The translations under genes were made by a program, and so were the position numbers. A stretch of 64,000 nucleotides of DNA from Bacteroides sp. GTDB taxonomy: Bacteria > Bacteroidota > Bacteroidia > Bacteroidales > Muribaculaceae. Position 1 is the first letter of the stretch. Each line of letters opens with the position of its first letter. The notes under the pieces were generated by a model. It did no database searches and was not told the DNA's origin. It was given only the letters and a program-made list of their open reading frames with translations. The stretch spans positions 1 through 64,000 of the forward strand of contig JAAVDN010000002.1 in NCBI GenBank assembly GCA_014801785.1, written 5' to 3'. Below, one piece after another: positions 45,697 to 48,906 of this stretch.

Positions 45697-46044
45697 ATGC
45701 CAAGATCAGTAAACCACGTTGCTTCAAGAGCAAAACGCAAGAAAATCCTCAAACTCACCCGCGGCTACTATGGCTCGCGCCGTAACGTCTGGACCGTCGC
45801 CAAAAATACCTGGGAAAAAGGTCTGACCTATGCTTACCGCGACCGCAAGCAGAAAAAGCGCAACTTCCGCGCCCTCTGGATTCAGCGTATCAACGCTGCC
45901 GCACGCCTTGAGGATCTTTCCTACTCCAAGCTCATGGGCCTCATCCATAAGGCTGGTATCGAGATCAACCGCAAGGTGCTCGCTGACCTCGCAATGAACA
46001 ACCCCGCTGCCTTCAAGGCTGTCTGCGACAAGGTCAAAGCCTAA
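45697..46044 (+). CDS. rplT: 50S ribosomal protein L20
   Basis: '[70 protein letters not shown]'. Confidence 0.97.
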
Positions 46045-46112
46045 GACCCGATTCAACATCCCCGAATACGGCCCGACATCTCTTCTCCGCCGTAATTTCG
46101 ACTGACCTTATA

Positions 46113-46155
46113 AAATATCCGCGTCGTTCCTTTTCAGGAACACGCGGATATTTTT
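46113..46155 (+). terminator. Rho-independent terminator of the thrS-infC-rpmI-rplT operon
   Basis: AAATATCCGCGTCGTTCC ttttc AGGAACACGCGGATATTTTT. Confidence 0.85.
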
Positions 46156-46193
46156 GTTTTCCCCACCTGCCCCCTCCACACAAACTAACCCAT

Positions 46194-46280
46194 CCACACC
46201 AACCGCGATATCTATGCCCCCTCCACACCAACTGCGATATCTATGCCCCCTCCACACCAACTGCGATATCTATTATCTGC
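46194..46280 (+). repeat. 29-bp tandem repeat, three units (third diverges)
   Basis: ccacaccaaccgcgatatctatgccccct / ccacaccaactgcgatatctatgccccct / ccacaccaactgcgatatctattatctgc. Confidence 0.9.
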
Positions 46281-46359
46281 ACGCCCTCCCACAAACCAAT
46301 ATACATCTTACCCTCTCCACCACCAACCAATATACTTCTTACTCTCTGGATAGTTTCTT

Positions 46360-46389
46360 ATGTTTTAAAACATATATGTTCTAAAACAT
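46360..46389. promoter_or_regulatory. Pair of AT-rich palindromes upstream of the EF-G paralogue
   Basis: ATGTTTTAAAACAT (46360-46373, perfect palindrome) and ATGTTCTAAAACAT (46376-46389). Confidence 0.5.
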
Positions 46390-46435
46390 CTTTTTTTTTA
46401 TCTTTCCACAGCAAAAAGTTTGTAACTTGCAATCG

Positions 46436-46735
46436 CGATTCCTTTACGCCCTCTTTTCCTCCCTTCCTCTCTCCTTTTTCTTATTTCTCCTTTATCCTCT
46501 CTCCTCCCCCTCTTTCCTCCTGCTCTCTTCTCCCGCTCTCTCTTCCCTCCCCCTCCCTCCTCTCTCCCGCTCCTCCCTCCCTCCTCTCTCCCGCTCCTCC
46601 CTCCCCCTCTTTCCTCCCGCTCCGTCAGTGCATAAGCCGCTTGCGGCTTATCTTCCCTCCAAAACCTCCCTCCTCCCCAAAAAAGCCTCCCCCTCTCCTC
46701 AGACTCCGCCTCCTCCCTCTCTCTCAGTTACCCCT
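46436..46735 (+). promoter_or_regulatory. Extreme polypyrimidine leader tract upstream of the EF-G paralogue (candidate Rho-utilisation/regulatory leader)
   Basis: 9 purines in the 180 nt from 46441 to 46620; exact 24-bp tandem duplication 46551-46574/46575-46598; embedded hairpin ATAAGCCGCTTGCGGCTTAT at 46632-46651. Confidence 0.6.
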
Positions 46736-46749
46736 TAAAATTTACTCAC

Positions 46750-48906
46750 ATGAAGATCTACAAATCTGACGAAATCAAGAACATCGCCCTTCTCGGATCG
46801 AAGGGCTCCGGTAAAACAACCCTCGCTGAGTCTATGCTCTTCGAGTGCGGAGTCATCAAACGTCGTGGATCGGTTGACGCTGGAAATACTGTCTCCGATT
46901 ACTTCCCCGTCGAGAAGGAATACGGTTATTCCGTCTTCTCAACCCTCTTCAGCGCAGAGTTCAACAATAAGAAACTCAACATCATCGACTGCCCGGGAGC
47001 GGACGACTTCGTCGGAAACGCATATACGGCCCTTGGGGTGACCGACATTGCTGTGATGACTATTGACGCCGAATATGGCGTCGAGGTCGGAACACAGAAC
47101 ATATACCGCACTACCTCCCGCCTTCACAAACCTGTCATATTCGCCCTCAACAAAATTGACGGCGAGAAAGCCGACTATGACAATGTCATCGAACAGCTCC
47201 GCGAAAATTTCGGAAAGAAGGTTGTCCCCATCCAATACCCCCTGCAGAGCGGCCCGGGTTTCAACGCCCTTATCGACGTGTTGCTCATGAAAAAATATGA
47301 ATGGGGTCCCGACGGAGGTGTGCCGACAATTTCCGAGATTCCCGAAAGCGAGATGGAGAAAGCCGACGCACTCCACCGCGAACTTGTCGAAGCGGCCGCC
47401 GAGAACGACGAGAGCCTTATGGACAAATATTTCGAAGACGGTCATCTGACCGAAGATGAGATGCGTCTCGGAATCCGCAAAGGACTTATCGACCGTTCCA
47501 TTCTTCCCGTCATCGTTGTCAGCGCCGCCAAAGATATGGGTGTGCGCCGTATGATGGAGTTTCTGGGTAACGTATGCCCGTTCGTGACCGATATGCCTGC
47601 TCCCGAAACAGTCGATGGAATATCTGTCGCCCCCGATCCCAACGGCCCACTCTCGGTCTTCTTCTTCAAGACCTCCGTCGAACCGCATATCGGCGAAGTC
47701 TCCTATTTCAAGGTCATGAGCGGAACGCTTAAGGCCGGAGCCGATCTGGAAAACGTTTCGCGCGGCGGCAAGGAACGTCTTGCCCAGATCTTCACAACCT
47801 GCGGCTCAATCCGCCAGCCCGTCGAGTCTCTCGAAGCCGGTGATATGGGAGCGGCTGTCAAGCTGAAAGATGTCAGAACCGGTAACACCCTCGATGAAAA
47901 GGGTTGCGACTTCCAGTTCGATTTCATAAAATATCCGGCGCCGAAGTTCGTCCGCGCTATCAAGCCTAAAAATGAAAGCGATGCTGAAAAACTCGCCGGT
48001 ATACTCACCCGAATGCACGAAGAAGACCCGACATGGCTTGTCGAGCAGAGCAAGGAACTGAAACAGACCCTCGTCAAAGGACAGGGAGAATTTCATCTGC
48101 GCACTCTCAAATGGCGCATCGAGAACAACGAAAAACTCCCTGTCGAGTTCTCCGAACAGAAGATTCCCTACCGCGAGACTATCACCAAAGCTTCCCGCGC
48201 CGACTATCGTCATAAGAAACAGTCGGGAGGTTCCGGACAGTTCGGTGAGGTCCATCTGATTGTCGAACCTTACACCGAAGGTATGCCCGAACCGGATTCC
48301 TACAAGTTCGGCAACCAGGAGTTCAAGCTTAATGTCCGCGACAAACAGGAGATTCCTCTCGAATGGGGAGGCAAGCTGATTGTCTACAACTGCATCGTCG
48401 GCGGAGCTATCGACGCCCGTTTCATCCCCGCTATCGTAAAGGGTCTCATGGACCGTATGGAACAGGGTCCGCTGACCGGCTCCTACGCACGGGATGTACG
48501 CGTGATGATTTACGACGGTAAGATGCACCCCGTTGACTCTAACGAAATTTCCTTCCGCCTCGCAGGGCGAAACGCTTTCTCAGAAGCTTTCCGCAACGCC
48601 AATCCGAAGATTCTGGAGCCTATCTATGATGTAGAGGTGATGACACCCGCCGACTCGATGGGTGATGTCATGAGCGACCTGCAGGGACGCCGCGGAATGA
48701 TAATGGGTATGGAGTCTGACCACGGCATCGAGCGTCTCAACGCCCGGGTGCCCCTGAAAGAGATGGCAAGCTACTCCACTTCCCTCAGCTCCATCTCCGG
48801 CGGACGCGCATCCTTCTCCATGAAGTTCGCCGATTATGAACTCGTCCCCTCCGATGTCCAGGAGAAACTCCTTAAGGAGTATGCCGCTACCCAGACTGAA
48901 GACTGA
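46750..48906 (+). CDS. Elongation factor G paralogue (EF-G2/FusA2-like)
   Basis: 718 aa with full EF-G domain layout. Altered G motifs: G1 'GSKGSGKTT', switch I 'EKEYGYSVFSTL', G3 'DCPGADDF' instead of DTPGHVDF. Confidence 0.9.
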   Translation: MKIYKSDEIKNIALLGSKGSGKTTLAESMLFECGVIKRRGSVDAGNTVSDYFPVEKEYGYSVFSTLFSAEFNNKKLNIIDCPGADDFVGNAYTALGVTDIAVMTIDAEYGVEVGTQNIYRTTSRLHKPVIFALNKIDGEKADYDNVIEQLRENFGKKVVPIQYPLQSGPGFNALIDVLLMKKYEWGPDGGVPTISEIPESEMEKADALHRELVEAAAENDESLMDKYFEDGHLTEDEMRLGIRKGLIDRSILPVIVVSAAKDMGVRRMMEFLGNVCPFVTDMPAPETVDGISVAPDPNGPLSVFFFKTSVEPHIGEVSYFKVMSGTLKAGADLENVSRGGKERLAQIFTTCGSIRQPVESLEAGDMGAAVKLKDVRTGNTLDEKGCDFQFDFIKYPAPKFVRAIKPKNESDAEKLAGILTRMHEEDPTWLVEQSKELKQTLVKGQGEFHLRTLKWRIENNEKLPVEFSEQKIPYRETITKASRADYRHKKQSGGSGQFGEVHLIVEPYTEGMPEPDSYKFGNQEFKLNVRDKQEIPLEWGGKLIVYNCIVGGAIDARFIPAIVKGLMDRMEQGPLTGSYARDVRVMIYDGKMHPVDSNEISFRLAGRNAFSEAFRNANPKILEPIYDVEVMTPADSMGDVMSDLQGRRGMIMGMESDHGIERLNARVPLKEMASYSTSLSSISGGRASFSMKFADYELVPSDVQEKLLKEYAATQTED

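Follow-up and report, generated by a model that had tools for sequence, protein, structure and literature searches.

The region upstream of the EF-G2 gene (fusA2) in the window, by which we mean the whole 64,000-nt stretch of DNA that was analysed, probably combines a Cur-activated fusA2 promoter with a lineage-specific leader that has grown by low-complexity C/T expansion. We give this reading a probability of about 0.58. The feature itself is real; its promoter logic is ordinary and its leader is unusual (Table 1).

Table 1. Features of the rplT–EF-G2 region, in positions of the window.
Feature	Position	Strand	Remarks
rplT	45697-46044		TIGR01032
Probable terminator of the thrS-infC-rpmI-rplT operon	46112-46160 (about)	+	inverted repeat AAAATATCCGCGT / ACGCGGATATTTT, then T-rich
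Tandem array, period 29	46189-46273		2.9 copies, GATATC in every copy
Tandem array, period 31	46289-46347		1.9 copies
Cur/BT4338 operator copy 1, TATGTTTTAAAACATA	46359-46374	+	0 mismatches to the published core TATGTTnTAnAACATA
Cur/BT4338 operator copy 2, TATGTTCTAAAACATC	46375-46390	+	1 mismatch; canonical spacing (48) to the -7 box
Predicted Bacteroidales -7 promoter element, TAACTTGC	46423-46430	+	48 nt from operator copy 2
Polypyrimidine tract (mRNA strand)	46441-46620	+	core 46449-46618
Exact 24-bp tandem duplication	46551-46605	+	31-nt match run at period 24
33-nt block with perfect 9-bp palindrome	46620-46652		exactly two genomic copies
Hairpin, ATAAGCCGCTTGCGGCTTAT	46632-46651		3' of the tract
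Second pyrimidine-rich stretch	46653-46727	+	
Start-proximal G-poor, A/T-rich block	46728-46749	+	resembles GTTAACC..TAAAATCTTTACCGC of several relatives
EF-G2 (fusA2) coding sequence	46750-48906	+	718 aa, intact; NF058620

The EF-G2 Gene and Its Upstream Region

The gene downstream of the leader matches NF058620, the Bacteroidota EF-G2 model, with 1294.7 bits (cut-off 1000), which bears out its earlier naming as an EF-G2 paralogue. The genes infC, rpmI and rplT lie 5' of the leader region, and the interval from rplT to EF-G2 holds no credible gene, as the original prediction had stated. A 103-aa frame does cross the tract (46427-46738), but stop codons require purines and their scarcity keeps the frame open, so that a coding reading was dropped. 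The probable terminator behind rplT was read by eye; its long loop made a simple terminator scan pass over it. The two tandem arrays between this terminator and the Cur operators had been overlooked by the earlier reader.

A Probable Cur-Type Promoter

In Bacteroides thetaiotaomicron, fusA2 is the gene that depends most on BT4338 (Cur) under carbon limitation, and the operator consensus of this regulator is wwwTATGTTnTAnAACATAwww (PMC6989115). The fusA2 mRNA of that species was found to be up 238-fold (PMC10294740). The window carries this operator twice, as one 16-bp tandem duplication (46359-46390), and no Cur operator core was found in shuffled sequence. Among the leaders of relatives, a doubled operator occurs elsewhere only in L395, likewise with 16-bp spacing. 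An operator with at most two mismatches is present in 171 of 187 related EF-G2 leaders, and in 170 of the 187 a TAnnTTGC-type -7 box stands 48-50 nt from the operator start. The window shows both parts of a fusA2 Cur promoter, the operator match and the -7 element at the fixed spacing of 48 nt; the original prediction had passed over the tandem operators and the -7 box alike. Since this anatomy is that of 170 relatives, the transcription start is predicted at about 46436, immediately 5' of the tract, and the tract is thus probably transcribed. A second promoter between the tract and the ATG was also considered and dropped, as there is no TAnnTTTG or TAnnTTGC box in 46431-46749.

A link between EF-G2 and starvation had been proposed before on the strength of the tract. 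Two copies of the operator known to drive fusA2 in B. thetaiotaomicron (PMC6989115) make such a link very likely, and by this analogy the known Cur operator, rather than the tract, would explain it best. The likeness to the Cur-activated fusA2 promoter of B. thetaiotaomicron (PMC6989115; PMC10294740) extends over the EF-G2 gene, the operator consensus, the type of -7 element and the carbon-starvation logic. The window differs in that its operator is doubled and lies about 250 nt farther from the start codon, because the leader has expanded.

Composition of the Leader

Purines make up only nine of the 180 positions in 46441-46620 (A3 G6 C101 T70), exactly as counted earlier; window-wide, 180 bases contain on average 87 +/- 10 purines and the lowest count is 8. 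The best pyrimidine segment score is 128, whereas none of 20 shuffles exceeded 20. Two features described previously, the exact 24-bp tandem duplication and the hairpin 3' of the tract, were recovered at the positions given in Table 1. The second copy of the 33-nt block is found on contig C15 of the same assembly (G000, about 48478-48510; L002:1521-1553), where it is intergenic with pyrimidine-rich flanks. The block is therefore a repeat with two copies rather than an EF-G2-specific element.

The leader consists of 51% C and 6% G, has 140 YC steps of 312 and is almost unstructured, with a minimum free energy of -11.9 kcal/mol over 314 nt. An intrinsic-terminator attenuator was dropped: the hairpin is followed by CTTCCCTCC, which holds no T run, and the terminator scan gave none in the leader. 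A known RNA family or riboswitch was dropped as well, the one Rfam match being a sub-threshold chance match on the opposite strand.

Leaders of Related EF-G2 Genes

The leader was compared to those of 187 related EF-G2 genes, with 319 leaders as controls. At about 314 nt it is far longer than in the relatives (median 64, maximum 176 nt). Pyrimidine segments scoring at least 20 were found in five relatives, namely L378 (G167; 55), L366 (G147; 40), L422 (G129; 31), L012 (G007; 24) and L014 (G036; 20), and a purine segment scoring above 14 in no leader of the comparison. This comparison of EF-G2 leaders, which the original prediction had called for, had a divided outcome: the long tract is not conserved, being absent from 182 of the 187 relatives, and smaller expansions on the sense strand do recur (5/187). 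An EF-G2-wide conserved long tract was accordingly dropped. Nearly all of the 182 leaders without it have the Cur promoter.

Two measures set EF-G2 leaders apart from controls, with p-values that are too small because the relatives are not independent: the motif CTCTCC occurs in 29/187 EF-G2 leaders vs 8/319 controls (Fisher p=1e-7), and scores of at least 20 in 5/187 vs 0/319 (p=0.007; the window, picked for its tract, stands outside the numerator). No such tract was found in dnaK and gap leaders.

Many relatives have short C/T elements of 9-14 nt, and several carry CCCTCTCTTCCC or CCTCCTCTCC 3' of the start site, ahead of a block like GTTAACC..TAAAATCTTTACCGC. In a tree built from 44 EF-G2 genes, at least four changes are needed to account for the pyrimidine-expansion trait. 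The window falls in a well-supported clade of 11, its exact place therein being weakly supported, and this clade has 63-nt leaders that bear CCTCCTCTCC or a close variant. L366 and L378 belong to a separate clade, where relatives bear CCCTCTCTTCCC-like seeds. This pattern suggests repeated growth out of short C/T elements. The tract of the window is not directly traceable to a seed, because even the nearest EF-G2 has no more than 86% identity. Folding of single leaders gave a mixed picture as to a conserved hairpin: hairpins take similar positions in some relatives, but their sequences differ, and two of the longer-tract leaders show little or no hairpin.

Pyrimidine Tracts Across the Genome

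Pattern searches found about ten further long pyrimidine tracts in the window's genome, located in leaders, 3' of stop codons and in a few coding regions, and facing either way. Pyrimidine runs of at least 32 occur in 31 of 42 genomes of the genus and 40 of 119 of the family, in varying counts; the window's genome is among the richest. By our own arithmetic, chance would give about 0.001 such runs per 2.5-Mb genome. As tracts are so widespread in the genome and its relatives, they are mostly a genome-wide low-complexity trait, and their occurrence in both orientations and just 3' of stop codons is as expected of growth at the DNA level. The tandem arrays and the doubled operator show that duplications arise readily in the intergenic region.

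The strand distribution is uneven. With genes called approximately by a codon-usage model and any replication-strand effect included in the counts, intergenic tracts of the family that could be assigned to a downstream gene have the pyrimidines on the mRNA strand in 49 cases and the purines in 21 (p=0.001), or 24 vs 6 with one vote per genome (p=0.0014; loci without a recorded genome counted singly). Tracts in coding sequences have the opposite bias (47 purine-sense vs 4 pyrimidine-sense). The strand bias and the enrichment in EF-G2 leaders thus amount to more than a purely neutral process predicts, among relatives that are not independent, and the recurrence and strand bias of the tracts hint that effects at the RNA level matter.

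Bacterial simple-sequence and low-complexity intergenic expansions resemble the tract in their tandem duplications, their restriction to lineages and their variability between genomes. The tract differs from them as an imperfect C/T mixture with an mRNA-strand bias and no pure short-unit repeat. A literature search confined to open-licence papers found nothing on intergenic simple sequence repeats in Muribaculaceae.

Two further observations were made during the survey. Long tracts, of pyrimidines and in some cases of purines, start at a stop codon or at most about 25 nt 3' of it in many genomes of the Muribaculaceae, in both orientations (L261, L262, L268, L291, L293, L310 and L318). Also, two contigs of one genome (G000: C10 and C20) have near-alike intergenic regions with a long pyrimidine tract (L218 and L224), each flanked by a similar divergent gene pair.

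How the Leader May Have Arisen and What It May Do

We propose that the leader lengthened from about 64 to about 314 nt in this Muribaculaceae lineage, by an expansion that may have started at or near the short pyrimidine element common to many related leaders. Carbon-starvation control would be exerted at the promoter by Cur, if Cur acts here as in B. thetaiotaomicron. The tract, transcribed if the -7 box is used, would be almost free of structure and would leave the start-proximal block intact; its most likely effect would therefore be none or a modest quantitative one. The pyrimidine bias of the mRNA strand may reflect tolerance at the RNA level, since purine runs in a leader would presumably be worse, or else a weak advantage. 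In our reading the expanded leader is tolerated or mildly tuning.

Alternative Explanations

The original prediction saw in the leader a candidate Rho-controlled switch. In such a Rho-dependent attenuator the C-rich, G-poor RNA would load Rho, and transcription would end before the EF-G2 start codon unless translation, an RNA-binding protein or an altered Rho activity in starvation intervened. We consider this unlikely, although it is the best of the alternatives. By its composition, the leader RNA would be an excellent Rho ligand: it has the character of a rut site, being untranslated, unstructured and far richer in C than in G 5' of the gene. The genome encodes Rho (G000:C11:60325-62487; 599 bits to TIGR00767), a protein of about 720 aa in which a large insertion stands N-terminal of a conserved core that starts at about residue 320-360. 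In size and insertion it resembles the Rho of B. thetaiotaomicron, which has 722 residues with a disordered insertion of 301 residues and forms condensates in carbon starvation, where its termination activity is raised (PMC13269538). The sense-strand bias and the recurrence of tracts in EF-G2 leaders are also in line with a role of Rho.

Several points argue against it. Firstly, what connects the leader to Rho is its composition; no termination site and no regulatory partner were found. Rho-dependent mRNA-leader attenuators (reviewed by Kriner et al., 2016, as cited in PMC13269538) share with it a long, C-rich, G-poor, unstructured and untranslated leader in an organism that encodes Rho, and the likeness is one of composition, with a tract that is not conserved. 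Secondly, the tract is missing in 182 of 187 relatives that retain the Cur promoter nearly throughout, which means that it is not a general or conserved switch. Thirdly, carbon starvation, the very condition under which Cur turns EF-G2 on, reportedly makes Rho more active, so that a naive Rho site would oppose the induction. The roc mRNA leader of B. thetaiotaomicron (PMC10294740) is another Bacteroidales leader tied to Cur-dependent carbon control, but that leader has a demonstrated regulatory effect; the likeness considered here is one of context.

Somewhat more doubtful is a positive RNA element, where S1 or an RRM protein, or else an sRNA, would bind to the unstructured leader and raise the translation or the stability of the EF-G2 mRNA. 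Ribosomal protein S1 prefers pyrimidine-rich RNA, the leader is nearly free of structure with its start-proximal block retained, and EF-G2 leaders show an excess of CTCTCC on the mRNA strand. In B. thetaiotaomicron, fusA2 mRNA co-purified with the sRNA MasB, which counts toward this explanation, albeit without a convincing site (PMC10994844). Most relatives, however, manage without the tract.

A DNA-level element seems improbable. It would be either a triplex (H-DNA), as was suggested before, or a contingency tract subject to slippage, through which EF-G2 expression would differ from cell to cell. The DNA is of the polypurine-polypyrimidine type and has tandem duplications inside and around the tract. 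Beyond this composition nothing favours a triplex, as the best mirror arm of 15 is inside the range of shuffled sequence (mean 12.6, max 23). In addition, the repeat is imperfect, without a pure short unit.

The gene order of the locus bears on the quality of the assembly. Among the sampled relatives, mostly Muribaculaceae metagenome-assembled genomes retrieved via EF-G2, the order rplT-EF-G2-galK is absent and EF-G2 is located elsewhere: rplT or galK was near EF-G2 in 0 of 137 EF-G2 loci, and EF-G2 or galK near rplT in 0 of 29 rplT loci, for which 1.5 kb was examined. In L127, the neighbours of EF-G2 are a HemN-like gene and a gene for a Crp/Fnr-family regulator; we did not name the latter Cur, as it scored under all named NCBIfam cut-offs and this position is rarely so occupied. 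The simplest reading of the order in the window is a rearrangement 5' of the promoter, and a chimeric contig is unlikely. An assembly or binning artefact in this draft genome (75.6% complete), to which the unusual order might point, is very improbable, given that the promoter, the tract and the gene fit together as a single whole, that independent genomes have smaller tracts at the same place and that the change in gene order is located 5' of the promoter.

Implications

Our reading of an ordinary Cur promoter with an expanded leader would mean that in Muribaculaceae, as in Bacteroides, starvation acts on EF-G2 through one and the same Cur promoter, whose anatomy is precise in 170 relatives. 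Transcription of the stop-codon tracts of this family on the pyrimidine strand, should it occur, would make them good candidates for Rho-dependent 3' ends. EF-G2 leaders repeatedly gain C/T runs on the mRNA strand, and these form a graded series of natural lengths, from about 10 to about 170 nt. One could speculate, with little confidence at present, that this repeated growth is selected and that the length of the leader, together with its C content, is an evolutionary dial for how strongly Rho or S1 modulates the Cur-driven EF-G2 output. The length series is direct test material for Rho and S1 effects in leaders of Bacteroidota.
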